64,000 bases of DNA from Aminobacter carboxidus (lineage in GTDB: Bacteria; Pseudomonadota; Alphaproteobacteria; Rhizobiales; Rhizobiaceae), in the NCBI RefSeq assembly GCF_014863355.1, contig NZ_JACZEP010000003.1, forward strand, positions 248,001 to 312,000, in the 5' to 3' direction. The translations under genes and the position numbers were made by a program. A model generated the notes under the pieces. The model was not told where the DNA came from, made no database searches, and was given only the letters and a program-made list of their open reading frames with translations. This document shows positions 48,925 to 64,000 of this stretch, in pieces (position 1 is the first letter of the stretch; each line of letters begins with the position of its first letter).

Positions 48925-50003
48925 CGCTGATGCTCGCCATCGTCGCCGACGACCTGACCGGAGCGCTCGATACCTCGGCGCCCTTTGTCGCATCGGGACT
49001 GAAGGTGGCGGTGGCGATGACACCCGACGCGACCGGCAAGGCGCTGGCGAGCGAACCCGACGTCTTTGCCGTGAGCACGGCTTCGCGAGCGCTGTCGGCG
49101 GAGGTCGCCTCAGCCCGGATACGCGACGTGGCGAGCCGATTGATGCCGCATGCCCCTGGCATCGTCATGAAGAAGATCGACTCCCGGCTGAAAGGCAATG
49201 TCGGCGCCGAGGCCGATGCGCTGGCCGAGGCCTCGGGCCGCGAGGCTCTGGTGGTGGCACCTGCCGTTCCGGACCAGGGCCGTACCACACGCGACGGTGC
49301 GGTCGTCGGTCGCGGTGTCGATATGCCTTTGCCTATCTTGCCGATATTTTCTGGAATTGCCAGGCGCGTCTCCGTCCGCAACTCTGACACCGACGCCGAT
49401 CTCGATCAGGTCGTCGCTGGCACCGACTGGAGCAACAGCGTTGCGGTCGGGGCACGGGGGCTGGGCCTGGCATTCGCCCGTCGTCTGCGGGCCAACGACA
49501 ATTCGAAGCCTGCCGTCTCATTTGAAAGCGGCGGGAACGTGTTGTTCGCCTTCGGCTCGCGCGATCCCATCACAGACCAGCAGGTTGCCCGATTGCTGGA
49601 GGATTGTCGCCACGTCCAGATCATCGACGCCCCAAACGGCCGCTTCGCCTTGCCCGCCGACTGCACCTTGCCGACGGTGGTGCGCTGTATCGGAGAGATG
49701 ATCGAGCAGCCGGCACGCATCGCTGCGCGCTTCGCCGAAGCCGTCGCCGATGCCGTTTACCTGATGCGCCCCTCGACGCTGGTCATGGGCGGCGGCGATA
49801 CCGCATTGGCCATACTTGGCGCGCTTGGCGCCGACGTGTTATTTCCGCAGGGCGAGGTTGCGCCGGGCCTGCCCTGGTTCACCATTGCGACACACCATGG
49901 CGAGGGGCTGCGCTGTGTCGTAAAATCCGGCGGATTCGGGACGGTCGCGGTTCTCTCCGATCTCTTGCGGCCACCGAGCGGGGAACAGGCGGAACACACA
50001 TGA
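48921..50003 (+). CDS. Four-carbon acid sugar kinase family protein (DUF1537)
   Basis: A 360-residue kinase of the DUF1537 family. The N-terminal half opens with IVADDLTGALDTSAPF and has KKIDSRLKGNVGAEADAL; the nucleotide-binding C-terminal half has LVMGGGDTALAILGALGA and PQGEVAPGLPWF. Known members phosphorylate D-threonate, D-erythronate or related acids at O-4. At 360 residues it is shorter than the usual 400 or more. It is coupled by ATGA overlaps to the importer ATPase and the GntR gene. With the PdxA homologue it would send the acid sugar to dihydroxyacetone phosphate. Confidence 0.88.
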   Translation: MTLMLAIVADDLTGALDTSAPFVASGLKVAVAMTPDATGKALASEPDVFAVSTASRALSAEVASARIRDVASRLMPHAPGIVMKKIDSRLKGNVGAEADALAEASGREALVVAPAVPDQGRTTRDGAVVGRGVDMPLPILPIFSGIARRVSVRNSDTDADLDQVVAGTDWSNSVAVGARGLGLAFARRLRANDNSKPAVSFESGGNVLFAFGSRDPITDQQVARLLEDCRHVQIIDAPNGRFALPADCTLPTVVRCIGEMIEQPARIAARFAEAVADAVYLMRPSTLVMGGGDTALAILGALGADVLFPQGEVAPGLPWFTIATHHGEGLRCVVKSGGFGTVAVLSDLLRPPSGEQAEHT

Positions 50004-50785
50004 CGACCGAACTGCAGCAGGACGGAACAGAGCCTGATACCACCGACACCGGCGAAAAATCGGGCAACGGCAGCAAGGGTGTTTCCAAGGCGCCCAAGCT
50101 GGTCGACAAGGTGTTCGACCAGTTGCAGGAGCGCATCGTCTCAGGCGAGTTCCCCTCGGGGTCCAAGCTGCCGGGTGAACACGACCTGGCGACGCTGCTC
50201 GGCGTCTCCCGACCCGTGGTGCGCGATGCGCTGGGCCGCCTGCGCGAGGTCGGCCTAGTCTATTCCCGCCAGGGTTCGGGCACCTATGTCCGTGTCTTCG
50301 ACACCCAGAAGACCAGCCTCGGCTTCTCCCCGGTCAAGACCATTGCCGATATCCAGCGCTGCTACGAGTTCCGCCTGACAATCGAGCCGGAGGCTGCCTA
50401 TTTCGCCGCACTTCGCCACGACGCCGCCGCGATGCAGAAGATGCGCGCCGCGCTGTCGGAACTGCGCGACGCGACGCGCGACCAGACCCACCGCTCCGAT
50501 GTCGACTTCCTGTTTCACCGCTCGGTGGCGGAGGCAGCCAACAATCACTACTACACCGCCTGCCTCGATGCGCTGCGCCAGCACATCGCCGTTGGCATGA
50601 ACCTGCACGGCCTGTCGCTGATGGGCCCGCTGACCAAGCTCGAACAGGTCTATGACGAGCATCGCGGCATCTGCGATGCGATTGCTGCTGGCGAGGCGGA
50701 GTTGGCGCGCGACCGCATGCGCGAGCACCTCGAGGGCTCGCGCAACCGCCTGTTCGAAAACAAGGTGCTCGACCTCTCGCGCTGA
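50000..50785 (+). CDS. GntR family regulator, FCD type
   Basis: A 261-residue regulator. A polar, low-complexity stretch of about 35 residues precedes the winged helix (IVSGEFPSGSKLPGEHDLAT, SRPVVRDALGRLREVGLVYS); the FCD domain has ligand/metal residues in VDFLFHRSVAEA and YDEHRGICDAI. The ATG at 50000 overlaps the kinase stop. As the last gene of the importer operon it probably controls this operon and the divergent PdxA operon through the region 42887-43269. Confidence 0.9.
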   Translation: MTTELQQDGTEPDTTDTGEKSGNGSKGVSKAPKLVDKVFDQLQERIVSGEFPSGSKLPGEHDLATLLGVSRPVVRDALGRLREVGLVYSRQGSGTYVRVFDTQKTSLGFSPVKTIADIQRCYEFRLTIEPEAAYFAALRHDAAAMQKMRAALSELRDATRDQTHRSDVDFLFHRSVAEAANNHYYTACLDALRQHIAVGMNLHGLSLMGPLTKLEQVYDEHRGICDAIAAGEAELARDRMREHLEGSRNRLFENKVLDLSR

Positions 50786-52200: not shown

Positions 52201-53145
52201 TTATGGCTGGTAGTCGGCCGGAGCGATGATCTTGGAGAAGTCGTAGTCGGCGACCTTCTCCTTGGTGACCAGCAGGGCCGGGGCCTCGATGCGGCCAAGC
52301 ACCTTGCCGCCCTCGATGGCGGCGATCGCCTCACGGGCGGCATCGCGACCCATGGCCACCGCCGGCTGCAGCGACGCGCAGGTCAGCTTGCCGTTTTCCA
52401 GGGCCGCGCGCGCGTCGTCGTTGAGGTTGGAGGTCGAGACCTTGATCTTGTCGACAGTCGCACCGAGCTGGTTGATCGACTCGACAGCCATGGTGTCGGC
52501 AGCGGTGAAGATGCCATGCATGTCGGGGTGGGCCTTGACCCATTCGACTGCGGCAACGCCCGCATCCTTGGTGCCGCCGGCCTTTTCGGCGACGATCTTG
52601 ATGTCGGGGAAGTCGGCTTCCATGGTGTTCTTGAAGCCGGTGACGCGCAGCTTGGCCCAGATCTCGTCAGGGCCGGCAAACAGGCCGACCTCACCCTTGC
52701 CGCCGATGGCGCGGCCAAGGCAGATGCCCTGCAGGCGGCCCATGCCGATGTTGTCGGCGCCAACGAATGACGTCAGGCGGTCGGACTTCGGCGGCACCGA
52801 CAGTGCGATAACCGGAATGCCCTTGTCGATGGCTTCTTCGACGGCGGGGCCGACGGCGGCGGCATCGGCCGCGCCGATGATGATGGCGTCCACCTTCTTG
52901 TCGATATAGCTGCGGATCTGTTCGATCTGGAGCTCAGCCTTGTCCTTGGCGTCGCCCTTCAGCACCGTGTAGCCTTTTTCCTTGCCGGCGGTCTCGACGC
53001 CGTAAAGGCCGGCCTTCCAGAACGGCGAGGCGAAGTAGGGAACCGTGACGCCGATCGTCTTTCCGGCAGCCAAAGCCGGGGCGGACAACATACTCGTTGC
53101 CGCCATAGCCAGAGCCAAAGTCAAATACCGTGCATTCTTGCCCAT
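52201..53145 (-). CDS. Sugar-type ABC transporter substrate-binding protein, orphan
   Basis: A 314-residue RbsB-like (Peripla_BP_4) protein with a signal peptide ending ALA, followed by GKTIGVTVPYFASPFWKAGL and the pocket strands VDAIIIGAADAAAVGPAVEEAI and GIFTAADTMAVESI. The start with GGAGGAG upstream gives MGKNARYLTLALAM. No permease or ATPase gene is next to it, so it must serve a transporter elsewhere or act in sensing. Its promoter has the same TATGCA repeats as the catabolic genes to the right. Confidence 0.87.
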   Translation of the reverse strand: MGKNARYLTLALAMAATSMLSAPALAAGKTIGVTVPYFASPFWKAGLYGVETAGKEKGYTVLKGDAKDKAELQIEQIRSYIDKKVDAIIIGAADAAAVGPAVEEAIDKGIPVIALSVPPKSDRLTSFVGADNIGMGRLQGICLGRAIGGKGEVGLFAGPDEIWAKLRVTGFKNTMEADFPDIKIVAEKAGGTKDAGVAAVEWVKAHPDMHGIFTAADTMAVESINQLGATVDKIKVSTSNLNDDARAALENGKLTCASLQPAVAMGRDAAREAIAAIEGGKVLGRIEAPALLVTKEKVADYDFSKIIAPADYQP

Positions 53146-53453
53146 GATTTCTCCTCCAGAATTCGGGTCTTGAATATCGCCGTTGCGCACCCTCGATGTG
53201 CCGGCGGCTACAGGTGCTGTGTAGTATGCAATACGATTACTATGTATGCACAACTAAGATTAAGAATGCAAATGATTTGATATGCACATTTGCGTTGATG
53301 CCTTGCGACATGCCTAAGGGTGCGCGAAAGCGCGTCGCGCAAGGGCGAGGAATTGGAAATGCGGGTGGGTCCGTGCTTCAGGCGCGGACGTGCGGACGCG
53401 ATCCGGCCACTGACCGGGTGCGGATCATTCGCCAGGTCGAGAGGGGCGTCTTG
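53146..53453. other. 308-bp intergenic region with repeated operator-like sites
   Basis: No gene is seen. The left 140 bases hold the promoter of the orphan binding protein and at least three TATGCA-centred sites (53225-53286). The right part is GC-rich and follows the 3' end of the GntR gene; small stems such as GTCCG/CGGAC near 53370 are visible but no clear terminator. Confidence 0.6.
53225..53286. promoter_or_regulatory. Array of TATGCA-centred sites, candidate GntR operators
   Basis: TATGCA at 53225-53230 and 53245-53250, AATGCA at 53265-53270 and TATGCA at 53281-53286; the first three are 20 bp apart. The flanks (GTATGCAATAC, TGTATGCACA) resemble the motif TGTGTATGCAAATA found before the VOC and FAH genes. 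They lie 80-141 bp upstream of the binding protein start. Confidence 0.6.
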
Positions 53454-54104
53454 CTATTTGGCTGCTTCTGCGGCGAAGCGGCTCATCACGCCGGCGCTGA
53501 GGCGGGCATTGTGCTGGTAGAGGGCAGCGAATGCGGCCGGGCCGTCATTGGCACGGATGGCGTCGACGACCTTCTGGTGCTCGTCGAGCGACTGCTGCAG
53601 GCGGATATCGGCCGGGCCAGCCTGGTGCTGGCGGAAAGGTGCCAGCCGCACACGCAGGTCGACGGCCATGGCCGTGATGGTAACGCTGTGGGCGCCACGG
53701 CAGATGGCGTCGTGGAACTTGCGGTTGATGTCGCGGCAGCCCTCGATGTCCTTGTTGCCGGCACATTCGGCATACTGGCGGTGCAGTTCGTAAAGCTGTT
53801 CGCGTTCAAGCGCGCTCATGCGCTGGGCCGCGAGCCGGGCGCACAGCGCCTCGATTTCGCATTCGGCCTCCAGCATGTCGGCCATCTGCTCGGTGTCGAT
53901 GCGGGCGACGACACCGCCGCGGCGCGGATTCATCTCGATCAGGCCGCGTGCACCAAGCTCGCGCAGCGCGTCGCGCACCGGGGTGCGGGAGACGCCGAAC
54001 TTCTCGGCGATGACCTTTTCCTCGAGTTTCTGGCCAGGCACCATCACGCCCTTGGCGATTTCCTCGGCGAGGGCCTGGTAGATCTGCGAGGCGATGGTGG
54101 TCAT
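53454..54104 (-). CDS. GntR family regulator, FCD type
   Basis: A 216-residue regulator with winged helix at residues 1-72 (IYQALAEEIAKGVMVPGQKL, FGVSRTPVRDALRELGARGL) and an FCD domain with DINRKFHDAI and LDEHQKVVDAI, the usual metal/ligand residues. It lies 82 bases after the hydroxyacid dehydrogenase gene on the same strand. It is the only regulator in the catabolic region 52-64 kb and so the best candidate to bind the TGTGTATGCA-type sites before three transcription units there. Confidence 0.9.
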   Translation of the reverse strand: MTTIASQIYQALAEEIAKGVMVPGQKLEEKVIAEKFGVSRTPVRDALRELGARGLIEMNPRRGGVVARIDTEQMADMLEAECEIEALCARLAAQRMSALEREQLYELHRQYAECAGNKDIEGCRDINRKFHDAICRGAHSVTITAMAVDLRVRLAPFRQHQAGPADIRLQQSLDEHQKVVDAIRANDGPAAFAALYQHNARLSAGVMSRFAAEAAK

Positions 54105-54185
54105 GCTTTCGGCTTTCCGGTCTTCACGGCAATGGGCGATCTGCCGCGACGGCAGACTCCAATCGATTTAGTGACAGCCCGAGAT

Positions 54186-55121
54186 TTATGCAAGCTGGGC
54201 TTTGAGTATACCACCGTTGCTATACGCGGTGAGGTTGTGGAGAAAGACGTCGATCTGGGCGCTTTCGGCGGCCGGAGAGCGTCCCGCCATATGCGGGGTC
54301 AGCACGACATTGTCGAGGCCTGCCAGAGCGGCCGGCAATTCGGGTTCGCCTTCGAAGACGTCGAGGCCGGCGCCGGCGATCCGGTGGTCGCGCAGTGCCT
54401 CGATCAGCGCCTCGGTGTCGACCACCATGCCGCGCGAGACATTGACGAGGAAGCCGTCGGGCCCGAGTGCCGTGAGCATGCGACGGTCGACGAGATGGCG
54501 CGTTGCCGGCCCGCCGGGGCAGGCAACGACGAGAAAATCGCTTTGGGATGCAAGTGCGACCGGATCGGCGACATGCGCCCAGGTTACGTCGGCCACCCTG
54601 TTGCGGCTGGCATAGGCGACGCGCATGCCGAAGGCTTCGCCGCGCCTGGCCACGGCCTTGCCGATATTGCCGAGGCCAATGATGCCGAGGGCGGCACCTG
54701 ACAGCGTCGGGCGGGCCGAGCGGATCGCGCCCCAGGCGCCCGCGCGCAGACGGCGGTCGCGCTGGCAGATGTCGCGGGCGACCGTCAGCATCAGGGCGAG
54801 CGCGTGGTCGGCCACGGTTTCGGTATTGGTGTTCGGCGCGTGGGTGACGTGGACGCCGCGGCGCCTTGCGGCCTCGACGTCGACATTCTCGTAGCCCGCG
54901 CCATAGGCAGAAACCAGCTTGAGGTCGGGCAGCCTGCTCATCTCGGTGTCGGAGAGGCCGGTGCTGCCGTTGGTGAGCACGGCCCAGACACCGCTGAAAT
55001 CGATATCCGGTGATCCGCTGCCCAACCCTGCGGGCAGCGTGATCACGTCGTAGGACTGGGACAGCCGCGACAGGCACGTGTCCGATACGGGGATTGTCAC
55101 CGCGATCGTGGACTTGACCAT
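54186..55121 (-). CDS. D-isomer-specific 2-hydroxyacid dehydrogenase family protein
   Basis: A 311-residue NAD(P)-dependent dehydrogenase. The Rossmann motif is GIIGLGNIGKAVARR, and the catalytic trio is seen as NVSRGMVVDTEAL (Arg), LDVFEGEPELP (Glu) and TPHMAGRSP (His). It probably reduces a 2-keto acid or glyoxylate/hydroxypyruvate, or the reverse. It shares the strand with the VOC gene 102 bases upstream and may be read from the same TGTGTATGCA-controlled promoter. Confidence 0.92.
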   Translation of the reverse strand: MVKSTIAVTIPVSDTCLSRLSQSYDVITLPAGLGSGSPDIDFSGVWAVLTNGSTGLSDTEMSRLPDLKLVSAYGAGYENVDVEAARRRGVHVTHAPNTNTETVADHALALMLTVARDICQRDRRLRAGAWGAIRSARPTLSGAALGIIGLGNIGKAVARRGEAFGMRVAYASRNRVADVTWAHVADPVALASQSDFLVVACPGGPATRHLVDRRMLTALGPDGFLVNVSRGMVVDTEALIEALRDHRIAGAGLDVFEGEPELPAALAGLDNVVLTPHMAGRSPAAESAQIDVFLHNLTAYSNGGILKAQLA

Positions 55122-55223
55122 CTCGAATGCTCCGTTCCGTTTTGTTGCCGCCGCCCAAGACCGGCGGCCGGGGCTGGCCCGATGCCAGGGTGCTAGTTTG
55201 CCCCGGCATTGGTGCGGGCCAGA

Positions 55224-55628
55224 TCAGGCGGCGTTGACGTTCTTGACCGCGCCCTTCCAGCCGTTCTCGGTGACGTCGAAAACGATGCCTTCGGGGGTCT
55301 TGTACTTCACTTCGTAAAAGACGTTCGGGTTCGATTCCTTGCGGCCGTTCATGTACGAGCCGCCGGCAGCCTTCACCAGTTCGTCGGTTTCCTCGACCGA
55401 ATCCACCCACATGCCGAAGTGGATGATGCCGTTGTAGTTCTTCTCGCTTTCGAAGCCTGGAATCGGCTCTTCGCCGAAGTTCAAAAGGGCGACGTTCATG
55501 ATGCCGTCGGTCATGTAGACGCCGCGCATCGCCTGGCCGGCGCGGGTCATGCCGAAGGCCTTCTCAAAGAACTGGGCCGCCGCTTCGGGGTCGGAGACGG
55601 CGATCGCGAGATGGCGCAACTTGGCCAT
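55224..55628 (-). CDS. VOC (glyoxalase/dioxygenase superfamily) protein
   Basis: A 134-residue VOC-fold protein starting MAKLRHLAIAVSDPEAAAQF, with FGMTRAGQ, IIHFGMWVDSVEET and VKYKTPEGIVFDVTENGW. First-strand His and middle His (IIHFGMW) could be metal ligands; the last ligand position reads FDVTE. ATG 55628 is at the conserved start; the frame to 55736 runs through the promoter. It is the first gene of the minus-strand unit controlled by two perfect 16-bp repeats. Reaction unknown. Confidence 0.82.
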   Translation of the reverse strand: MAKLRHLAIAVSDPEAAAQFFEKAFGMTRAGQAMRGVYMTDGIMNVALLNFGEEPIPGFESEKNYNGIIHFGMWVDSVEETDELVKAAGGSYMNGRKESNPNVFYEVKYKTPEGIVFDVTENGWKGAVKNVNAA

Positions 55629-55691
55629 TGGATTTCCTTTCACAGGTCTAGACGGCGAAGCGGAAGCCGCCTCGCAACACAGTATCTGTTT

Positions 55692-55736
55692 TCTGTGTAT
55701 GCAAATACTAATCTGTGTATGCAAATATGTTGTCAA
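55692..55736 (-). promoter_or_regulatory. Promoter with two perfect 16-bp direct repeats (GntR-type operator)
   Basis: TCTGTGTATGCAAATA occurs at 55692-55707 and 55712-55727, identical at all 16 bases and 20 bp apart. On the minus strand a TTGACA -35 hexamer lies at 55736-55731 and GATTAG sits at the -10 distance (17-base spacer, 55713-55708), so one repeat fills the spacer and the other covers the start area. This is the layout of a repressor site for the VOC gene. Confidence 0.72.
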
Positions 55737-55822
55737 GTGTGAAATTGACTGCTATCCAAGCCAAATGAGGGGCGTGGGTACACCTGCTTGATGGCCCCTC
55801 CGTAAGGAGCAGGGACAGCGAA

Positions 55823-56779
55823 ATGCGATTTGCGGGACTTTCCGCTGATGACCGGGCGCGGCTCGATGCCATCGGCAAGGTGTGGAACGACGATCTGGGC
55901 GCAAGCCGCCAGGTGGTGCTCGACGTCTATCGTGCCCATCACCGCGCCAAGGCCGAGAATGACGACATCGTCATCCATCGCGACCTCGCCTATGGTGCCG
56001 ATCCAGCCCATCGCCTCGACGTCTTCGAAAGCAGCAGCCGCTGCGCTTCCGGGCGTGGCCGGCCGGTCGTCGTCTTCGTGCATGGCGGCGCGTTCACGCG
56101 CGGGTCGAAGAGCACGGACGGCCTCATCTATGACAATGTGCTGCGCTGGTTCAGCCGCCAGGGCCTCGTCGGCGTCAATGTCGAGTATCGGCTGGCGCCG
56201 GGCGCACAATATCCCGAGGGCGCGCGCGACGTGGCCGCGGCGATCGACTGGATCGCCGCCAACATCGAGCGCTTCGGCGGCAATCCGCGCTCGATCCTGA
56301 TCGTTGGCCATTCCGCAGGCGGCTGCCATGTCGCCGGCTATCTCCACGACCCCCATGTTGGACGGCGCCCGAGCCCCGACATCCGAGGTGTTGTGTTGAT
56401 CAGCGCGCGGCTCAGGGCAGACAGCCTGCCAAGCAATCCCAACGCCAGCAATGTTCGCCAGTATTTCGGTGACGACGAGGCTGTCTATGAGGCGCTGTCG
56501 CCGGTCATCCACGCCGGCACCAACCCGCTCCCGGTGCTGGTCGCCGTCGCCGAGTTCGAGAACCGCTACATCGACGCCTATGGCGCCGAGTTCGTCCAGC
56601 GGCACGCGATGCGCAGCGGCAAGGCGCCGCGCTTTGTCCAGCTCAGCCGCCACAACCACACATCCATCGTCGCGCATTTCGATACGCACGAAGAAGAACT
56701 GGGACACGAGATCATGCGCTTCGCCATCGACGAATGCGGTCTCTTTCCCTGCGGCTTGTCCTGTCAAAAGCGAAAGTGA
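55823..56779 (+). CDS. Alpha/beta hydrolase (HSL-type carboxylesterase)
   Basis: A 318-residue hydrolase with the oxyanion motif HGGAF (VVFVHGGAFTRGS), the nucleophile elbow GHSAGG, and late His in LSRHNHTSIV; the Asp is likely in the strand before EFENRYIDAYG. Substrates are esters or amides of small acids; arylformamidase-type enzymes of tryptophan breakdown have the same architecture. It starts the plus-strand unit that continues with the aldolase and RidA genes; the gap to the aldolase is 5 bases. Confidence 0.86.
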   Translation: MRFAGLSADDRARLDAIGKVWNDDLGASRQVVLDVYRAHHRAKAENDDIVIHRDLAYGADPAHRLDVFESSSRCASGRGRPVVVFVHGGAFTRGSKSTDGLIYDNVLRWFSRQGLVGVNVEYRLAPGAQYPEGARDVAAAIDWIAANIERFGGNPRSILIVGHSAGGCHVAGYLHDPHVGRRPSPDIRGVVLISARLRADSLPSNPNASNVRQYFGDDEAVYEALSPVIHAGTNPLPVLVAVAEFENRYIDAYGAEFVQRHAMRSGKAPRFVQLSRHNHTSIVAHFDTHEEELGHEIMRFAIDECGLFPCGLSCQKRK

Positions 56780-56784
56780 GACCC

Positions 56785-57699
56785 ATGAACCAGGAGCTTC
56801 TCTCCGTCTACGCACCCGTGCTGACGCCGTTCAATTCGGACCTGACCGTCAACACGAAGCGTTTCCTGCGCCACTGCCGCTGGGTTGTCGACCAGGGTGC
56901 TGGCCTTGCGATCTTCGGCACCAACAGCGAAGCCGCCTCGCTGTCGCTGGTGGAAAAGCGCCGCCTGCTCGATGAGGTCGTTGCATCCGGCATCCCGGCC
57001 TCGGCGCTGATGCCAGGCACCGGCGCCAACTCGCTCGAGGAGACCGTCGAGCTGACGCGTGCGGCGGTGGACGCCGGTGCGCCGGCGGTGCTGGTGCTGC
57101 CGCCGTTCTTCTTCAAGCCGGCGTCGATCGAAGGGCTGATCCGCCACTACGGCCGCCTGATCGAGGCCGTGGGTTCGGACAAGCTGCAGGTCGTGCTCTA
57201 TCACATCCCACAGTTCACCGGCGTTCCTGTTACCGTCGAGCTGATCGAGGGCCTGCGCCGCCGCTATCCCAATGTCGTCGGCATCAAGGACAGCTCGGGC
57301 GATCGCGAAAACCTCGCGCGCTACCTAGAGATCGGCGATGGCTTCAAGGTGTTCCCGGCCTCCGAGATCCTGCTCGGCGAAACCATCGCCAAAGGCTCCG
57401 TCGGTTGCATCTCGGCGACCGCAAACGTCAACGCCAAGGGCATGGTCGACGCGATCGTGAACACGGCCAAGCTGGGCGCGTCCGATGCCTTTGCCAAGGC
57501 CACCATGGTGCGCACGCTGTTCCAGCAGTTCGCGATGATCCAGGCGATGAAGTCGCTGATCGCACGCGAGCTCGGCTCAGCGGAATGGCGGACGGTTCGC
57601 GCACCGCTGGTCGAACTCGACGCGCAGGCCGAGCAGAAGTTCTTCGCTGCCGTCGACCAGGCTGGCTTTTCGCCCTGGGCGCTGGAGAAGGCGGCGTGA
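56785..57699 (+). CDS. Dihydrodipicolinate synthase family aldolase (second copy)
   Basis: A 304-residue DapA-superfamily aldolase: Schiff-base Lys in VVGIKDSSGD, Tyr in [11 protein letters not shown], and LFGTNSEAASLSLVEK-type pocket loop (FGTNSEAASLS). The shared VLYHIPQ stretch makes it a close relative of the protein at 40995-41900. ATG 56785 starts at the conserved strand. It probably splits a 2-keto acid formed in this pathway to pyruvate plus an aldehyde. The RidA gene starts two bases after its stop. Confidence 0.9.
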   Translation: MNQELLSVYAPVLTPFNSDLTVNTKRFLRHCRWVVDQGAGLAIFGTNSEAASLSLVEKRRLLDEVVASGIPASALMPGTGANSLEETVELTRAAVDAGAPAVLVLPPFFFKPASIEGLIRHYGRLIEAVGSDKLQVVLYHIPQFTGVPVTVELIEGLRRRYPNVVGIKDSSGDRENLARYLEIGDGFKVFPASEILLGETIAKGSVGCISATANVNAKGMVDAIVNTAKLGASDAFAKATMVRTLFQQFAMIQAMKSLIARELGSAEWRTVRAPLVELDAQAEQKFFAAVDQAGFSPWALEKAA

Positions 57700-57701
57700 G
57701 T

Positions 57702-58100
57702 ATGGCTTTAACCGAACGGCCGACGCCGCTCGCCAATTATCCGTTCCTGCGCGAAGCAGGTGGCCTGCTGTTCCTGTCGGGCGTCAGCGCTCGGCGCAAG
57801 GACGGTACCATTGCCGGCGTCGACAGGCTGTCGGGGGAGGTGCGCTACGACGTGGCCGAACAGCTCCGTGCGATCGTCGCCAACATCACCGAGACATTGC
57901 ACGCGGCGGGAGGCACTCTTGCCGACCTCGTCGACGTCACGATCTTCCTCACCGACATGGCCGACTATCCGGCGATGAACGGCGAATACAACAGGTGGTT
58001 TGCCTCAGACGGTCCGGCCCGCACGACAGTGGGCGTCAGTCAGCTGCCGCACCCCGACATGGTCGTCGAGCTCAAGGTCGTCGCGCGCCGGCCGGGCTGA
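57702..58100 (+). CDS. RidA family protein, 2-aminomuconate deaminase-like
   Basis: A 132-residue RidA-fold protein. Its sequence (LFLSGVSARRKDGTIAG, FLTDMADYPAMNGEYNRWF, GPARTTVGVSQLPHPDMVVE) resembles 2-aminomuconate deaminases of aminophenol and 2-nitrobenzoate degradation more than generic RidA, where the corresponding end is GPARTTV.V..LPH. Such enzymes remove ammonia from a ring-cleavage enamine. It ends the plus-strand unit before a clear terminator. The 2-aminomuconate call is from motif memory. Confidence 0.82.
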   Translation: MALTERPTPLANYPFLREAGGLLFLSGVSARRKDGTIAGVDRLSGEVRYDVAEQLRAIVANITETLHAAGGTLADLVDVTIFLTDMADYPAMNGEYNRWFASDGPARTTVGVSQLPHPDMVVELKVVARRPG

Positions 58101-58162
58101 CGTTCTACCCAAGGCCTGGTTCAAGACTTTTCAAGCAACCGATTTTTTTGCACCCATAGCCT

Positions 58163-58191
58163 GCCCCCGGCGCTTGCGTCGGGGGCTTTTT
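58163..58191 (+). terminator. Rho-independent terminator after the RidA gene
   Basis: GCCCCCG (58163-58169) pairs with CGGGGGC (58180-58186), followed directly by TTTTT. It lies 63 bases past the RidA stop and separates it from the convergent RutE-like gene. Confidence 0.88.
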
Positions 58192-58207
58192 CTTGCGCAG
58201 AGCTCGG

Positions 58208-58819
58208 TCAGAGGACCGTGCAGGCTTCCTCGAAGGGCAGGCGGGGGTGCCGGGGAAATAGCTTGGCCGGGTCGCCATGCCCGATGCCACAGATGAAGTT
58301 GGAACGTATGGCGCTGCCGGCAAAGAAGATCTCGTCGGTGGCGGCGCGGTTGAAACCCGAGATCGGACCGCAGTCGAGGCCGAGCGCGCGCGCTGCCAGC
58401 ATGTAGTAGGCCGCCTGCAGCGTGGCGTTGCGGAATGCGGTGTCGTCGACGATGTGCCGGTTGCGCTCGAAATGGGCTTTGCCGTCGGTGTGCGGAAACA
58501 GGTAGGGCATCTTTTCGGCAAAGTCGTAGTCGGTGGCGAAGATGGCGACGACCGGGCAGGTCATGATCTTGGCGACGTTGCCGGCGGCGAGCGCCGGCTT
58601 CAGCCTTTCGCGCGCCGCATCCGTCGTCAGGTAGACGATGCGCAGCGGCGAGCAGTTCATGCTCGTCGGGCCCATCTTGGCGATATCGTGGATGCGCGCC
58701 AACAGCGCGAGTTCGACCGGACGGTCGAGCCAGCCGTTCTGGCTGCGGGCATCGAAGAACAGGCGGTCGAGCAAGGTCTTGCCGTCGTCCAGTGTGGCGA
58801 TCTGCATGGCGTGATCCAT
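58208..58819 (-). CDS. Nitroreductase family protein, RutE-like (malonic semialdehyde reductase type)
   Basis: A 203-residue FMN-dependent reductase very like RutE: LLDRLFFDARSQNGWLDRPV, AKMGPTSMNCSPLRIVYL, PVVAIFATDYDFAEKMPYLF, ARALGLDCGPISGF and GDPAKLFPRHPRLPFEEAC. RutE reduces malonic semialdehyde to 3-hydroxypropionate in uracil breakdown. No other rut genes are here, so it probably reduces a 3-oxo acid from the local pathway. ATG 58819 shares one base with the GST stop. Confidence 0.88.
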   Translation of the reverse strand: MDHAMQIATLDDGKTLLDRLFFDARSQNGWLDRPVELALLARIHDIAKMGPTSMNCSPLRIVYLTTDAARERLKPALAAGNVAKIMTCPVVAIFATDYDFAEKMPYLFPHTDGKAHFERNRHIVDDTAFRNATLQAAYYMLAARALGLDCGPISGFNRAATDEIFFAGSAIRSNFICGIGHGDPAKLFPRHPRLPFEEACTVL

Positions 58820-59628
58820 CAAAGCGATTCCATTTCCATTGTTGCGGTGTGGCCGAACGCCTCGGCGAGCAGTGCTTTGACGAGGCCAGTGTCGACGAGC
58901 GGATCGGGGCGAGCGCTGTCCGGCCCCTGGGCCGCGGCGAATGACGGACGGCTGCGGATGCGCGCCGCCCAGCCGGATGCCTTGGGAAAGGGCGAGAACA
59001 AGACAGGCATCGCCAGCCGGTCCAACCGGTCGATGAAGGCTGCCATCGCCACATCGGCGAGCGAGAAGCGGTCCGCTGCCAGCCAGTCGGTTGCGGCAAG
59101 CGCCCGCTCCATCTTTGCCAGCACGTCTCGAAAAATCCTGATGGAGTTGATGACGGCTGTGCGATCGAAGGCCGCGTTTGCCGCGGCCACATAAGCTTCG
59201 CGCCTGGCCGGAAGCGGATGCCGCGCGATCAGCTCGCCGAATTCGACGGCGGCGATCTTCGCCACGCGCGCCTTGAGGATCAGATTGAAGGTCGGCGGAC
59301 GAACGGCGGGATGTACCACCTCGTCCTCGAAGCGCGTCCAGACGCGCGCGCGCGCGCGTTCTTCTACCGCAAGGGGCAACTGCCCTCCGCCGGCAATGTC
59401 GACGAGCAGTTCATTGATGTCGGAGGATTCGACGAAGACCTCGCCGTTCCAGCGCAGCGCCGGCACCAGCCCCTTTGGGTTCACCGCGAGATACGCCGTT
59501 GCGAGATTGTCGAAGCGTGACAGGTCGATGCGGTGCGAGATCCAGGGAAGGCCGAGTTCCGCCAGGCACATGCGCACCTTGAAGGACTGAACCGAACCCC
59601 ATTCATGGAACAATTCGACCTCAGACAT
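58819..59628 (-). CDS. Glutathione S-transferase family protein
   Basis: A 269-residue GST. The thioredoxin-like half has SVQSFKVRMCLAELGLPWI, NPKGLVPAL and the glutathione-contact motif ESSDI; the helical half ends with LAADRFSLADVAMAAFIDRL. Such proteins include maleylpyruvate and maleylacetoacetate isomerases, which would suit an aromatic ring-cleavage pathway next to an FAH hydrolase. The ATG at 59628 is preceded by the inverted operator pair shared with the divergent FAH gene. Confidence 0.88.
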   Translation of the reverse strand: MSEVELFHEWGSVQSFKVRMCLAELGLPWISHRIDLSRFDNLATAYLAVNPKGLVPALRWNGEVFVESSDINELLVDIAGGGQLPLAVEERARARVWTRFEDEVVHPAVRPPTFNLILKARVAKIAAVEFGELIARHPLPARREAYVAAANAAFDRTAVINSIRIFRDVLAKMERALAATDWLAADRFSLADVAMAAFIDRLDRLAMPVLFSPFPKASGWAARIRSRPSFAAAQGPDSARPDPLVDTGLVKALLAEAFGHTATMEMESL

Positions 59629-59668
59629 TGTCAGAAACTCGCTTTCTGTGCGCACCTTACGCTTGACA

Positions 59669-59699
59669 TGCATACACAGATGATGAAGTGTATGCAATA
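59669..59699. promoter_or_regulatory. Inverted pair of TGTATGCA sites between the GST and FAH genes
   Basis: TGCATACACAGA (59669-59680) is the reverse complement of TCTGTGTATGCA, matching 12 of 12 bases of the VOC promoter motif, and GTGTATGCAATAA begins at 59688 in the other orientation. A TTGACA hexamer lies at 59663-59668. It would control both divergent transcripts. Confidence 0.65.
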
Positions 59700-59731: not shown

Positions 59732-60670
59732 GTGGTGTGGCACGCGCTAGGACAACGAGTGATCAGGGACGAAGTTCGGCCCGTATTGGTGACGGAGCAG
59801 GGCGTCTATGACCTCGCGCTGGTGGCGCGCCTTGCGGGCAAGGATGACCAGGCCTGGGAGAAGTGGATCGCCAGTGGTGTGCCGGGCATCCTGGATCGCT
59901 GGCAGGACGTGGCGCCGGCCTTGGCCACCCTTGCCGAAAGCGTCGTTGCCGCCGGCCCGAAATACGAACCGCTGGGCACCGGCACGCAGCTTTGCGCTCC
60001 CTATCGCCCGATCCGCATTTTCGCCACCGCGTCCAACTATGTCGAACATGCTCAGGAGATGGGCACGGTGCTGGCCGCCAAGTCGGAAAGCCAGCCCTAT
60101 GTCTTCATGAAGGCGGATTCGAGCATCATCGGTCCTGATGAGGCGGTGATCCTGCCGCAGCATGCGCAGAAGGTCGATTGGGAGGTCGAACTGGCGGCAG
60201 TGATCGGCATCGGCGGCCGTGACATTCCGGTCGAAAAGGCGCTCGAGCATGTCGCCGCCTATTCGGTCATCAATGACATCACCTCGCGCGATCTCACGCG
60301 CCGCACCGATTTCCCCTTCAAATTCGACTGGTTCCGGGGCAAGAGCTTCGACACGTTCGCCCCGCTCGGTCCGTGGCTTGTGCCGGCCGCCTGCATCGGC
60401 GACCCGCAGAGCCTGCGCCTGACGCTGGACGTGAACGGGACGCGCAAGCAGGACGACAGCACCGGTTCGATGATTTTTTCCGTCGCCGAGCAGATTTCTT
60501 ATCTGTCGTCTATCCTGACGCTTAGGCCGGGCGACCTGATCGCCACCGGAACGCCTGACGGCGTCGGCATGGGGACCGGCGAATTCCTCAACTGCGGGGA
60601 CATCGTCACGGCGGCCGTCGAAAAGGTCGGCGCCATAACAAATCCGATACGGGCGATGCCGGTCGGATAA
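59732..60670 (+). CDS. Fumarylacetoacetate hydrolase (FAH) family protein
   Basis: A 312-residue FAH-fold protein with an ~80-residue N-terminal extension. Metal ligands are seen in DWEVELAAVIG (Glu) and NDITSRDL (Asp); other marks are ATASNYVEHA, GSMIFSVAEQISYLSS and TGTPDGVGMG. The family includes hydrolases, decarboxylases and hydratases of ring-cleavage products. Start at GTG 59732 (GTG 59735 possible) behind AAGGAAGGAG. It leads the plus-strand unit with the importer and extradiol-type VOC gene. Confidence 0.9.
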   Translation: MVWHALGQRVIRDEVRPVLVTEQGVYDLALVARLAGKDDQAWEKWIASGVPGILDRWQDVAPALATLAESVVAAGPKYEPLGTGTQLCAPYRPIRIFATASNYVEHAQEMGTVLAAKSESQPYVFMKADSSIIGPDEAVILPQHAQKVDWEVELAAVIGIGGRDIPVEKALEHVAAYSVINDITSRDLTRRTDFPFKFDWFRGKSFDTFAPLGPWLVPAACIGDPQSLRLTLDVNGTRKQDDSTGSMIFSVAEQISYLSSILTLRPGDLIATGTPDGVGMGTGEFLNCGDIVTAAVEKVGAITNPIRAMPVG

Positions 60671-60710: not shown

Positions 60711-61709
60711 ATGGCAATGAGTTTCGGGAAGGCACTGCGCGGGTTAGCCCTTGCAGGTGCCGTAGCAAGCATGACGGCCGCCGCGTCGGCAGCCGAGAAG
60801 GTTTCTTTCAACATGTCGTGGCTGCCGCAGGGTAGCGTCGGCGGCATCCTGGTCGCCAAGGCCAAGGGCTTCTATGACGAGGCCGGCCTCGACGTCACCG
60901 TCTACCAGGGCTATGGCGGCCAGCGCACGGTCAACGAAATCGACCAGGGCCTGTTCGACATCGGCTACGGCGATCCGGTCTCCGTCATTCTCAACCGCGC
61001 CAATGGCGGCAAGGCCGTGTTCGTCGGCTCGATCAACACCGTCTGGCCGGGCGCGCTCTGCTACCTGACCAAGGAAGGCGAGAGCGAGAAGAAGCTCGCC
61101 GACTTCGCCGGCAAGTCCGTCGGCGGTGGTGCCACCTCGCCGGTGCAGAACATCGTTCCGAGCTGGCTCGAAGAGAATGGCCTGCCCAAGGATCACCTCA
61201 AGCTGCTGCGCATGAATCCGGCCGTCATCACCTCGGCCTTCCTGGAAGGCAAGGTCGATCTCGCCGAATGCTGGGAGGGCGCCAGCCTGCCGATCCTGAC
61301 CGAAAATGCCGGCGAGAGCGGCAAGAAGATCGGCATGATCAAGTATCGCGACTTCGGTCTCGACATGTATGGCAGCGGCTTCGTCACCACCGAGCAGATG
61401 CTGGCCGAGAAGCCCGAGGTCGTCGACAAGTTCCTCGACGCTTCTTATCGCGGCTACGAGTATCTCGCCCAGAATCCCGACGAGTCGGCCGAACTGATCG
61501 TCAAGCAGTATCCGACGCTGGAAAAGAGCATCGTGCTCGAGCAGGTCAAGCAGATCAACGCGCTGGTCCGCGATCCCAATGCCGAAAACAAGGACCTTGG
61601 TTTCGTCCGCGAGGACCGCATGGAAAAGACCATGGGCTTCGTGCGTGAGGCCTTCGTCGTCGACGACAGCATCAAGACTGCTGACCTCTACCGCAACATC
61701 AGCCGCTGA
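60711..61709 (+). CDS. NMT1/THI5-like (aromatic/sulfonate-type) ABC transporter substrate-binding protein
   Basis: A 332-residue type 2 periplasmic binding protein with a signal peptide ending ASA and the opening VSFNMSWLPQGSVGGILVAK, then VYQGYGGQRTVNEIDQGLFDIGYGDP, typical of the NMT1/SsuA group that binds pyrimidine precursors, sulfonates, nitriles or aromatic acids. It lies 41 bases after the FAH gene in the same orientation. Its channel and ATPase follow after the VOC gene. Confidence 0.9.
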   Translation: MAMSFGKALRGLALAGAVASMTAAASAAEKVSFNMSWLPQGSVGGILVAKAKGFYDEAGLDVTVYQGYGGQRTVNEIDQGLFDIGYGDPVSVILNRANGGKAVFVGSINTVWPGALCYLTKEGESEKKLADFAGKSVGGGATSPVQNIVPSWLEENGLPKDHLKLLRMNPAVITSAFLEGKVDLAECWEGASLPILTENAGESGKKIGMIKYRDFGLDMYGSGFVTTEQMLAEKPEVVDKFLDASYRGYEYLAQNPDESAELIVKQYPTLEKSIVLEQVKQINALVRDPNAENKDLGFVREDRMEKTMGFVREAFVVDDSIKTADLYRNISR

Positions 61710-61737
61710 GGGCTGACTTCACTCCTGGATGAGGACC

Positions 61738-62280
61738 ATGAAGAAGAAGATCAACGTCAGGAAGCTGGGCCACATGGTCCTGATGGTTCGCGACATCCAC
61801 AAGTCCGTCGACTTCTACACCAATGTCGTCGGACTGGAGGTCTCGGACTGGATCGAGGACAAGATGGTGTTCCTGCGCGCAGGCTCCGACCATCATGACC
61901 TCGCACTGTCGCAGATCCCGGCGGATTCGCCGGATCGTGACGACCTGCCGAAGTACTCGCGGCCCGGCCTCGAGCACTTCTCCTACCTGGTCGACAGCCT
62001 CGAGGACATGGAGGCGGCGGCCGACATGCTGCAGGAGCGCGGCGTCGAGATCGTCCGCGGCATCGGCAAGCATGGCCCGGGCGCCAACTGCTTCCTCGTG
62101 TTCAAGGATCCCGACGGCAACAACTGCGAGATCTATTGCGACATGATCCAGGTGACCGAGGAAAACCCGCATGTCGCGCAGGTCTGGGCACGCAACATCG
62201 ACGCCTTCGACCAGTGGCATTTCAAGCGCTTCGTCGTTCCACCGCCCCACCAGGTGGTGAAGGACAAGCTGGGCGAGTAG
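61738..62280 (+). CDS. VOC superfamily protein with extradiol-dioxygenase-type metal site
   Basis: A 180-residue single-module VOC protein. Metal ligands match those of type I extradiol dioxygenases: His in KLGHMVLMV, His in GLEHFSYLV and Glu in NNCEIYCDM, with FKDPDGN before the last. It may open a ring between or next to hydroxyl groups, although other VOC reactions are possible. The ATG at 61738 has GAGG 6 bases upstream; an ATG at 61729 is weaker. It sits between the importer binding protein and permease genes. Confidence 0.84.
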   Translation: MKKKINVRKLGHMVLMVRDIHKSVDFYTNVVGLEVSDWIEDKMVFLRAGSDHHDLALSQIPADSPDRDDLPKYSRPGLEHFSYLVDSLEDMEAAADMLQERGVEIVRGIGKHGPGANCFLVFKDPDGNNCEIYCDMIQVTEENPHVAQVWARNIDAFDQWHFKRFVVPPPHQVVKDKLGE

Positions 62281-62430: not shown

Positions 62431-63195
62431 ATGTCAGGCGTTAGTCCAAGGCTTGTCGCCTACGCGCAAGTCGTCTTGTTTTTCGGAGCTTTCCTGCTCT
62501 TCTGGGAATACGGCGTCCGCTATTTCGAAGTGAAAAAATACATCCTGCCGCCGATCTCGGCGATCCTGGTGGCGATCTGGGAATCACGCGGCCAGATCTT
62601 CGAGCACTCGATGTATACGCTCGCCGAAGTGCTGATCGGCTTCATCGCCGCTGTCGTGGTCGGCATCATCATCGGCATGATCGTTTATGTCTCGCCCTTC
62701 GCCCAACGCACCATCTACCCGCTGGTGACGGCGCTGCAGACGACGCCGAAGAGCGCGCTGGCGCCGCTGATGATCGTCTGGTTCGGCTACGGCTTCGTTT
62801 CCAAGGTGGCGATGGCCTTCCTGTTCGCCTTCTTCCCGATCGTCGTTGCCACGCTGGGTGGCTTCGCCGGCACGGCCAAGAACCTGGAGGAGCACTTCCG
62901 CGCCCTCAACGCCGGGCCATGGACGACGTTCACGACACTGCGCCTGCCGAGCGCGCTGCCTGCTTTCATCGACGGCTGTCGCGTGGCCATGCCGCTGGCG
63001 ATGATCGGCGCCATCATCGGCGAGCTCGTCGGTTCCGACCGCGGCCTCGGCAACCTGATCATGCTGGGCACCGCCTCGTCGCGCACCGACCTCGTCTTCG
63101 GCTGCATCATCGTCATCACGCTGATCTCGCTGGTGCTCTACGCGCTGATCGAATTCGCGGCCAAGTCCGTCTGGTGGCGGGGTATCCAGGTATGA
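62431..63195 (+). CDS. ABC transporter permease (SsuC/TauC-like)
   Basis: A 254-residue permease with six or so membrane spans, PLVTALQTTPKSALAPLMIV, the EAA-like loop HFRALNAGPWTTFTTLRLPS and LGNLIMLGTASSRTDLVFG. It is the channel for the NMT1-type binding protein at 60711. The 150-base gap before it holds no gene. Confidence 0.93.
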   Translation: MSGVSPRLVAYAQVVLFFGAFLLFWEYGVRYFEVKKYILPPISAILVAIWESRGQIFEHSMYTLAEVLIGFIAAVVVGIIIGMIVYVSPFAQRTIYPLVTALQTTPKSALAPLMIVWFGYGFVSKVAMAFLFAFFPIVVATLGGFAGTAKNLEEHFRALNAGPWTTFTTLRLPSALPAFIDGCRVAMPLAMIGAIIGELVGSDRGLGNLIMLGTASSRTDLVFGCIIVITLISLVLYALIEFAAKSVWWRGIQV

Positions 63196-63218
63196 ATATT
63201 GCAGTTCGGGAGGAAACC

Positions 63219-64000
63219 ATGTCGGCGACGGCGACCATCGAGGCACACAAGGACAGCGTGACGCCGGCGGCACAGCCTCAGGCCTACCACATCGAGGCCA
63301 AGGGTCTGAACAAGGCCTTCGGCAAGGTGAAGGCGCTCGAAGACATCAACTTTGGCATACGCAATCAGGAGTTCGTCTCCGTGCTCGGGCCGAGCGGCTG
63401 CGGCAAGAGCACGCTTTTGCGCATCATAGCCGGCCTGATCCCGTATGAGAGCGGCGCGGCGACGGTCAAGGGCGAGGCTATCCATTCGCCCAGGCCAGAC
63501 ATCGGCGTGGTCTTCCAGACCAACAACATGCTGCCCTGGTTCACCGTGCGCAAGAACGTCGAGCTTGGCGCCCGCATCCGCAAGATGCCGGCGCAAGCCC
63601 GCGACCAGGCGGTCGACAAGGTGCTCGAGGTGCTGTCACTCAGCAAGTTCGCCGACGCCTATCCGCACCAGCTGTCGGGCGGCATGCGCCAGCGTGCCTC
63701 GATCGGCCAGGCGCTGGTGCTCGATCCGCCGATCCTGTTGATGGACGAGCCTTTCGGCGCGCTCGATGCGCTGACCCGCGACAAGCTCAATGTCGAGCTG
63801 CTGCGCATCTGGCAGGAACACCGCAAGACCGTGATGCTGATCACCCACAGCATCGCCGAGGCCGTGTTCCTTTCCGACCGCGTGCTCGTCATGGCCGACC
63901 GGCCCGGCAAGATCATCGAGGAGGTGGTGATCGACCTGCCGCGTCCTCGCGATGCCGCCGCCACCCGCGCCCTGCCGCAATTCGGCGAATATGTCGCTTA
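63219..64000 (+). CDS. ABC transporter ATP-binding protein (SsuB/TauB-like), 3' end outside window
   Basis: About 260 residues are present before the window edge. Walker [12 protein letters not shown], signature [15 protein letters not shown], Walker B ILLMDEPFGALDAL and switch His (LITHSIAEAVFL) are intact. ATG 63219 has GGGAGGAAA just upstream; the in-frame ATG 63192 overlaps the permease stop and is possible. It energises the importer of the catabolic cluster. Confidence 0.92.
   Translation, partial: MSATATIEAHKDSVTPAAQPQAYHIEAKGLNKAFGKVKALEDINFGIRNQEFVSVLGPSGCGKSTLLRIIAGLIPYESGAATVKGEAIHSPRPDIGVVFQTNNMLPWFTVRKNVELGARIRKMPAQARDQAVDKVLEVLSLSKFADAYPHQLSGGMRQRASIGQALVLDPPILLMDEPFGALDALTRDKLNVELLRIWQEHRKTVMLITHSIAEAVFLSDRVLVMADRPGKIIEEVVIDLPRPRDAAATRALPQFGEYVA

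Follow-up and report, generated by a model that had tools for sequence, protein, structure and literature searches.

The gene cluster lies in a 64,000-nucleotide stretch of the Aminobacter carboxidus genome, the whole of which is referred to as the window. On the minus strand are genes for an orphan Peripla_BP_4 substrate-binding protein (52201..53145; PF13407), a probably VanR-type GntR-family regulator with an FCD domain (53454..54104; PF07729), a D-isomer 2-hydroxyacid dehydrogenase (2HADH, 54186..55121; PF02826/PF00389) and a VOC family protein (VOC1, 55224..55628; PF00903). The last three are likely to form an operon with VOC1 as its first gene, and the GntR protein is the proposed repressor of the cluster. 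The plus strand then carries an alpha/beta-hydrolase gene (BD-FAE / Abhydrolase_3; 55823..56779) and genes for a DHDPS-family aldolase/lyase (56785..57699; PF00701) and a RidA family protein (57702..58100; PF01042). A RutE-like protein of the malonic semialdehyde reductase family (58208..58819; PF00881; 262.4 bits with NF003768, cut-off 152) and a GST family protein (58819..59628; GST_N and GST_C models) are encoded on the minus strand. The FAH family hydrolase gene (59732..60670, plus strand; PF01557) is the presumed start of an importer operon, which would continue with an NMT1/THI5-like substrate-binding protein (60711..61709; PF09084), a second VOC family protein (VOC2, 61729..62280; PF00903), an ABC permease (62431..63195; PF00528) and an ABC ATPase (63195..64000; PF00005), all on the plus strand. 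The ATPase gene extends about 30 bases beyond the window, and its end was located in L045. PDB sequence matches indicated that VOC2 resembles one extradiol dioxygenase domain, and its residues H12, H80, and E131 are invariant in 5 sequences.

Related repeats occur in three intergenic regions of the cluster. An identical 16-mer, TCTGTGTATGCAAATA, is present at 55692-55707 and 55712-55727, 20 bp apart as an earlier sequence-only reading had reported, and a minus-strand match with 3 mismatches is located at 59665-59680. With up to 3 mismatches, TCTGTGTATGCAAATA gave 3 matches against 0.08 expected, and 0 of 100 shuffles reached 3, a statistic that is indicative only because the pattern was derived from the same data. 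TGTGTATGCA is no rarity when up to 1 mismatch is allowed: the window contains 5 copies against an expectation of 1.43, and 5 was reached by 2 of 100 shuffles. The inverted 12-base core of that reading was recovered as TCTGTGTATGCA on the minus strand at 59669-59680, with the partner GTGTATGCA at 59688-59696. Each repeat comprises a single 8-bp near-palindrome, TGYATRCA. The centres of the near-palindromes are 53226.5, 53246.5, and 53266.5 before the binding-protein gene, 55699.5 and 55719.5 between the VOC1 and alpha/beta-hydrolase genes, and 59672.5 and 59692.5 between the GST and FAH genes, so that neighbouring sites of a group are always exactly 20 bp apart. This distance corresponds to two helical turns.

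The three groups are predicted operators. Ladder A, located 5' of the Peripla_BP_4 gene, consists of AGTATGCA (53223-53230), TGTATGCA (53243-53250), and AGAATGCA (53263-53270), and aligned counterparts are present in 6 orthologous loci. The TATGCA variants previously placed at 53225, 53245, and 53265 hold with respect to their 20-bp spacing; the third one reads AATGCA. A possible fourth, weaker element, GATATGCA (53280..53287), lies 17 bp from the third site and outside the 20-bp series, and its aligned block is conserved in part only. Pair B (55696..55723), between the divergent VOC1 and alpha/beta-hydrolase genes, has TGTATGCA at both 55696-55703 and 55716-55723. Pair C (59669..59696), between the divergent GST and FAH genes, has TGCATACA at 59669-59676 and TGTATGCA at 59689-59696. 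Both pairs are kept in orthologous loci; one pair C member is degenerate in Ensifer (AGAATACA) and one pair B member in L038. TGTATGCA and TGCATACA have the form of FadR-subfamily operators (GT and AC boxes with a centre of 2-3 nt), with one box reading GC.

The genome contains single TGYATRCA words at 75 places, whereas the reversed control occurs at 33. Phased pairs with at most 2 mismatches occur at 6 places in the 6.29-Mb genome (3 for the reversed control), of which 4 lie inside a 6.5-kb part of this cluster. A random spread of the motif over the genome, which the sequence-only reading had named as grounds for refutation, is not what the phased pairs show, and these pairs, not the single words, are the special feature. 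Another pair in the same genome (G000:C2:36166-36193) contains TGCATGCA twice with a 20-bp step and is also present in G002. A tblastn search of 12 kb around it found no GntR homolog, and the pair probably belongs to another system. A further place in this genome, C5:43274, matches the pair pattern with 1 mismatch.

The sites are conserved in related clusters. Seven other distinct clusters (2 from Aminobacter and 5 from Ensifer/Sinorhizobium/Rhizobiales) have exact TGYATRCA words at all three corresponding promoter regions; duplicate records (L049 = L040, L052 = L042, and L048 = L077) were counted once. An ortholog of the GntR protein was found in all 8 distinct Aminobacter/Ensifer-type clusters. 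Among 7 aligned sequences, 49 of 56 site columns are invariant compared with 166 of 543 other intergenic columns (Fisher p 6e-17, indicative only as the sequences are related). When steps of 9-60 bp were allowed, 18 of the 27 close pairs in the 8 clusters had a step of exactly 20 bp.

The operator pair also tracks the regulator among genomes. From 394 family genomes, the matches listed include 4 genomes with a GntR protein of at least 86% identity, and all 4 carry the exact N12 pair. Five of the other 390 genomes have this pair, and one of them (G214) contains a diverged version of the cluster with SRSPIR instead of SRTPVR in its GntR protein. The pair and GntR searches were taken as the same draw from a larger family because their handles agree; the GntR matches listed represent 72 of 394 rows with at most 7 candidates scored per genome, and G001 and G008 are outside the places listed for the pair. 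Stretches of 3 kb each were examined at 18 loci from the pair search of the family genomes and at 11 loci of the own genome. In the stretches examined, exact N12 pairs of G002, G262, G291, G146, and the second own-genome place had no GntR homolog. Among 12 chosen genomes, the pair (at most 1 mismatch) was present in 5 of 5 with a GntR ortholog and in 1 of 7 without it (G002, the TGCATGCA pair). A Burkholderia arboris cluster, whose GntR protein is 48% identical, has 20-bp ladders in two divergons when mismatches are allowed. In Niveispirillum, an FAH-NMT1-VOC2-permease-ATPase locus in which no GntR homolog was detected contains neither an exact site nor an exact pair over 20.9 kb.

Regions upstream of GntR homologs were compared for 21 chosen loci, namely L060-L074 (15 loci, from 52 genomes with a match among those listed), L044, L047, L050, L051, L075, and L076. 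They contain 33 exact sites in 10.5 kb, compared with 7 in 149 kb elsewhere, a 67-fold density; the control region is mostly coding, and several loci are from one genus. Positions were counted from where the aligned region begins, as a stand-in for the start codon. An exact site lies within 500 bp upstream in 14 of the 21 loci and is absent in 7. Among these 7, L047 and L075 carry ladders that are located elsewhere or contain mismatches, ladders with 1 mismatch precede the FAH gene in L063 and L066, and L044, L050, and L051 have no ladder within 500 bp upstream of the homolog. L044 is the weightiest counter-case, since its GntR protein is 71% identical with the same recognition helix, yet no cluster gene is present in 15 kb and the locus has no exact site. 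A 21-bp step was seen beside other FCD regulators.

The protein encoded at 53454-54104 belongs to the GntR/FCD family (PF00392, 66.8 bits, cut-off 27; PF07729, 81.3 bits, cut-off 24.3). Its recognition helix, S39-R40-T41..R44, is invariant in 8 sequences and has the Ser-Arg-Thr-x-x-Arg form. N127, H131, H176, and H198 are likewise invariant in 8 sequences and correspond, at the sequence level, to the Asn/Asp and three His residues of metal-binding FCD domains. The predicted model shows six helices in the C-terminal domain, the number (six, not seven) that would place the protein in the VanR group, but its mean pLDDT is only 61. A fold search with this AlphaFold model gave a TM near 0.3 in almost every one of the 50 rows listed, and the model is too poor for fold comparison. 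The best NCBIfam match was TIGR03338 (phnR_burk), and this identity was rejected because the score of 101.4 bits is below the curated cut-off of 271.5 bits. Profile searches of the window genes matched no cluster gene to a phosphonate family.

The TTGACA hexamer that had been noted at the 16-mer repeats is present on the minus strand (55736-55731). It was placed by eye as a -35-like element of the VOC1-2HADH-GntR operon (55731..55736); GATTAG (55713-55708), 17 nt beyond it, falls between the two pair B sites. A -35-like TTGACA of the FAH operon, also placed by eye (59663..59668, plus strand), adjoins the first pair C site. Both hexamers are invariant in 7 aligned sequences, and a consensus promoter scan returned none of the by-eye promoters. 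The sites are located between and just past the presumed -35 and -10 elements of the VOC1-2HADH-GntR promoter and directly after the -35 element of the FAH promoter. At the alpha/beta-hydrolase promoter, pair B is upstream of the likely -35 element (TTGTCA 55730-55735, with TATCCA 55753-55758).

We consider it probable (approximately 0.85) that the repeats are operators belonging to a single regulon of the GntR protein at 53454-54104, which would repress its targets, regulate its own gene, and be released by a catabolite. The computed sites, their spacing, the genome-wide rarity of pairs, their conservation, and their tracking with the GntR gene are the observations behind this reading. The proposal of a single regulon under this regulator had been made from the sequence alone, and it is favoured by site conservation, co-occurrence with GntR orthologs, palindrome enrichment upstream of homologs, and a second FCD-GntR gene that does not track the sites. 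The gene list proposed at that time is supported in what it contained and was incomplete; the divergent alpha/beta-hydrolase-DHDPS-RidA genes (55823-58100), which probably form an operon, VOC2, and the GntR gene itself should be added. One GntR dimer would bind to each 8-bp near-palindrome (GT-N2-AC type), and 2-3 sites at exact 20-bp steps would line the dimers up along the same side of the helix, where their binding would probably be cooperative. Because the sites sit between or past the -35 and -10 elements, or directly after the -35 element, GntR most likely represses transcription, including its own. A metabolite of the imported compound, probably an organic acid, may bind to the FCD domain at the conserved, putative Asn/His/His/His metal site. 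Its binding would release the DNA and switch on both import (the NMT1-type ABC importer and the Peripla_BP_4 binding protein) and catabolism (the two VOC proteins, FAH, GST, the RutE-like and DHDPS-like proteins, RidA, alpha/beta-hydrolase, and 2-hydroxyacid dehydrogenase).

It is unlikely, though the strongest of the alternatives, that the same GntR protein activates at least one unit, e.g. the alpha/beta-hydrolase operon, and represses the others. The location of pair B upstream of promoter-like hexamers on the plus strand and the conservation of the TTGACA/TTGTCA block fit activation, but the sites at the VOC1 and FAH promoters follow the -35 element, the usual place for a repressor, and Atu1419 is described as repressing its targets in the available part of the report (PMC7797058). 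Binding by a second FCD-GntR protein or an unlinked regulator is considerably less probable. Contrary to the claim that the GntR gene at 53454 is the only regulator gene nearby, another FCD-GntR gene is located about 2.7 kb away (50000..50785, plus strand). However, four genomes that lack such a pair (G005, G006, G007, and G009) contain 97% orthologs of it, while G003, which has pairs, gave no match at E 1e-30. The second protein also carries SRPVVR instead of SRTPVR and, like FadR-group proteins, is 13 residues longer behind the wing. The GntR protein at 53454-54104 lacks these residues, and it is the latter protein that is present in every one of the 8 clusters. The second FCD-GntR was set aside as the binder, as the presence of its orthologs does not follow the operator pair. 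Equally improbable is the explanation that the repeats are promoter elements. The TTGCATAC-N-TGTATGCA arrangements do contain TTGCAT and TATGCA, which resemble a -35/-10 pair, but conserved TTGACA hexamers adjoin the sites, ladders of three exist, and at 6 of the 15 paralogous GntR loci the sites are found roughly at -70, -235, and -315 relative to where the alignment begins, a layout not needed by promoters. Chance recurrence of an AT-rich word is hardly credible, for although single words are fairly common and the reversed pair control gave 3 places, 4 of the 6 genomic pairs lie inside one cluster and their phase and position are conserved.

For this uncharacterised catabolic cluster of Aminobacter and Ensifer/Sinorhizobium, diverged in Burkholderia, regulation by the GntR protein at 53454-54104 would supply an operator, a regulator, and a list of genes. 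The genes on this list limit the range in which the substrate has to be sought, and the fixed 20-bp step offers a clean system for asking how neighbouring GntR dimers cooperate. The encoded parts include a single-domain extradiol-like VOC protein, an FAH hydrolase, a GST, a DHDPS-like lyase, and an NMT1-type importer. More tentatively, the system might represent a VanR-type GntR branch acting on an open-ended palindrome ladder with strict two-turn (20-bp) steps, which controls an undescribed uptake and ring-cleavage-like pathway common to alpha- and betaproteobacteria.

With good support, the system can be counted as a new case of a familiar type of gene switch. A literature search by title and start of abstract returned nothing for the gene set or the spacing, and only seemingly unrelated titles for the motif with GntR. 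The GntR protein is 27-29% identical to Atu1419 in the fold search, and Atu1419 ranked fifth by E-value in the PDB sequence search. According to the available part of the report, Atu1419 belongs to the VanR group of FCD-GntR proteins and represses hydroxycinnamate catabolism in Agrobacterium fabrum, and its structure was solved on DNA containing ATGTATACAT, where Arg45 contacts G3 and Thr46 contacts A5 (PMC7797058). Both proteins combine GntR and FCD domains, bind or would bind similar palindromes (ATGTATACAT and TGYATRCA), and control, or in the present case would control, several units, including their own, from sites over the -10 element or between -35 and -10. Ser44-Arg45-Thr46..Arg49 of Atu1419 corresponds to S39-R40-T41..R44, and its metal residues N137, H141, H192, and H214 correspond to N127, H131, H176, and H198. 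The Y/R wobble tolerated at the fourth base here falls at operator position T4 of Atu1419 and its partner, and T4 is mentioned there solely as a phosphate contact (PMC7797058). In contrast, the Atu1419 palindromes serve another pathway and are 109-190 bp apart, for which a tetramer and looping were proposed, while the sites here are 20 bp apart. In the available part of the text of PMC4494728, the ortholog group and motif of this GntR protein were not met. As far as described there, the GT and AC boxes of some FadR-subfamily groups are separated by 2 nt, as observed here. In E. coli NanR, three FCD-GntR dimers on the repeated operator (GGTATA)3 similarly repress a catabolic gene set, but the available description concerns hexamer repeats and sialic acid genes instead of 8-bp palindromes at 20-bp steps (PMC8012715). 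Paired sites at a near-constant distance in divergons, as in pairs B and C, are also described for FadR-subfamily regulons, where they were interpreted as controlling the two operons co-operatively (Suvorova et al., 2015, PMC4494728).

All the repeat words in the window, read as symmetric sites, are one symmetric element, TGYATRCA, with AT in the middle. The sequence-only reading had placed a 16-mer at 55692 and 55712 and an inverted recurrence of its core at 59669–59680. Both are present in the sequence, and the distinction between direct and inverted repeats vanishes because the 8-bp unit is nearly palindromic. The sites are designated as ladder A (centres 53226.5, 53246.5, and 53266.5; AGTATGCA, TGTATGCA, and AGAATGCA), pair B (centres 55699.5 and 55719.5; direct), and pair C (centres 59672.5 and 59692.5; inverted), and the step is 20 bp throughout. 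The observation of the repeat is confirmed, and the cluster is well supported as a predicted regulon, whose modest surprise lies in the strict 20-bp phasing and the depth of its conservation.

Genes in the window were named from Pfam and NCBIfam. Ladder A precedes a Peripla_BP_4 protein gene (−), pair B lies between VOC1-2HADH-GntR (−) and alpha/beta-hydrolase-DHDPS-RidA (+), and pair C lies between GST-RutE-like (−) and FAH-NMT1-VOC2-permease-ATPase (+). This arrangement points to five transcription units, one of which contains the gene of the proposed repressor, the FCD-type GntR protein at 53454–54104 (−). VOC2 is similar to one domain of extradiol dioxygenases, and its H12, H80, and E131 are kept in five sequences. 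The FAH, GST, and DHDPS families often work on products of ring cleavage. The imported compound may be an acid that the enzymes of the cluster degrade by a ring-cleavage-like route.

In the genome of 6,287,532 bases, single TGYATRCA occurs at 75 places versus 33 for the backwards-read control, and two sites separated by 12 bases (N12 pair, ≤2 mismatches) occur at six places versus three. The six are two overlapping places in ladder A, pair B, pair C, and the places C2:36166 and C5:43274. With the looser core GYATRC and 13 or 14 bases between, 10 places were found versus one for the control; three are inside the window, and GCATGC stands on both sides in five of the other seven. At C2:36166–36193 (L046:6167–6194), the perfect palindrome TGCATGCA occurs twice, one 20-bp step apart, ahead of the probable start of a secreted protein, which we take to be LVIVD/selenium-binding-like, and the same pair is found in genome G002. 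No GntR homolog was found near this pair in 12 kb.

The protein at 53454 had been regarded as the sole regulator nearby, which does not hold: a second, FadR-like FCD-GntR gene is located at 50000–50785 (+). Short tandem repeats, with the translated reading RPPDRQTARPPDRQTA, lie between this gene and TauE (~50890–51000). Orthologs of the second regulator, at 97–98%, occur in the genomes of five further members of the genus; it is present at 97% in G005, G006, G007, and G009, all lacking the pair, and has no match in the pair-bearing G003. Orthologs of GntR 53454 (≥86%) were found in four of 394 family genomes (G000, the window's own, G003, G299, and G377), and matches of some kind at E 1e-36 in 52, the non-orthologs showing ≤45% identity. 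The exact N12 pair is present in all four ortholog genomes and in five of the other 390. Among these five, G214 carries a diverged cluster (GntR 37%, GST 47%, FAH 56%, NMT1 47%, VOC2 65%) with three sites before FAH at 20-bp steps, the first with two mismatches, while neither a GntR homolog nor a cluster gene was found around the pair in the 3-kb loci of G002, G262, G291, and G146. Among 12 chosen genomes (≤1 mismatch), the pair is present in all five with a GntR ortholog (G000, G001, G003, G299, and G377), the sole pair of G002 is that of TGCATGCA, and G004–G009 lack the pair.

A GntR protein scan of genome contigs gave seven loci: two from Aminobacter (99 and 86%), four from Ensifer/Sinorhizobium/Rhizobiales (85–86%), and one from a Pseudoxanthobacter MAG (71%). 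In six of the seven, the cluster order is kept and exact TGYATRCA stands at the three corresponding promoter regions. A tblastn search at 1e-15 detected no GST in loci L039 and L043, which retain the site upstream of FAH, and TauE comes next after the binding protein in Aminobacter loci only. Another distinct cluster with sites, borne entire on an 834-kb plasmid of Ensifer sp. PDNC004 (NZ_CP070354.1), brings the total to eight including the window. This plasmid location and the presence of GntR in three of 10 genomes belonging to the same genus as the window suggest that the cluster moved horizontally. When the three intergenic regions of the window and six loci were aligned, the conserved blocks were the sites and the neighbouring TTGACA, with 49 of 56 columns invariant in the sites versus 166 of 543 elsewhere; across the eight clusters, 18 of 27 site pairs with ≤1 mismatch have a step of 20 and the other nine have steps of 24 (three), 43 (three), 45, 52, and 56, although these columns and steps are not independent events because the clusters are related sequences.

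Upstream regions (500 bp each, 10.5 kb in total) of 21 chosen GntR homologs, 37–71% identical, contain 33 exact sites versus 7 in 148.8 kb elsewhere, a 67-fold density ratio that is not a clean statistic because coding sequence makes up most of the comparison DNA and one genus contributed several loci. At least one exact site is present in 14 of the 21 loci (13 of the 15 drawn from the family-genome search). The absence of exact sites within 500 bp upstream of GntR in L044 (71%), L050, and L051 counts against the association. The region upstream of the Pseudoxanthobacter GntR (L044:9600–10000) has no TGYATRCA and contains two GTGCAC words (TTGTGCACAATCGTGCACGA), perhaps an altered operator of this protein. 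In Burkholderia arboris (GntR 48%), a ladder at 14690/14710/14730 (2, 0, and 2 mismatches) occupies the hydrolase-VOC1 divergon, the position equivalent to pair B, while the stretch from FAH to GntR contains a pair at 11770/11790 (1 mismatch each). In Cupriavidus metallidurans, TGTATACA is located between VOC1 and GntR. A Niveispirillum plasmid with FAH-NMT1-VOC2-permease-ATPase has no GntR homolog (1e-8) and neither an exact site nor a pair in 20.9 kb.

Pairs with 13 bases between (21-bp step) were found in nine further genomes (L025, L028–L032, L034, L036, and L037), and since all nine adjoin another FCD-GntR homolog (32–36% identical) starting within ~160 bp, paired palindromes of this kind seem to be habitual among FCD regulators. 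In eight of the nine, the two sites flank a TGTCAA or TTGACA word. In six of 15 loci (L060–L074), paralogous FCD-GntR genes have three TGYATRCA upstream, at approximately −70, −235, and −315, another regular layout.

The VOC1 promoter has the order TTGACA (55736–55731), first site, GATTAG hexamer at 17 nt, and second site, and TTGACA of the FAH promoter (59663–59668) directly adjoins the first site; these hexamers were assigned by eye and are absent from the consensus promoter scan output. The site positions relative to the hexamers favour repression, which GntR would exert from the predicted sites at both promoters. GntR 53454 has S39-R40-T41-P-V-R44 and the metal residues N127, H131, H176, and H198, invariant in eight sequences. 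In the part of the report used here, Atu1419, a VanR-group FCD repressor, binds ATGTATACAT, has base contacts Arg45–G3 and Thr46–A5, with T4 mentioned solely as a phosphate contact, and has its sites at −10 or between −35 and −10 (PMC7797058). By the likeness of the S39–R44 segment, the Y/R wobble of TGYATRCA would fall at a position for which that part describes no base contact in Atu1419. Atu1419 is not the nearest to GntR 53454 by sequence, as four other solved chains score higher. GntR divergons with double sites at a near-constant distance were interpreted as co-operative in the portion of Suvorova et al. drawn on here (PMC4494728).
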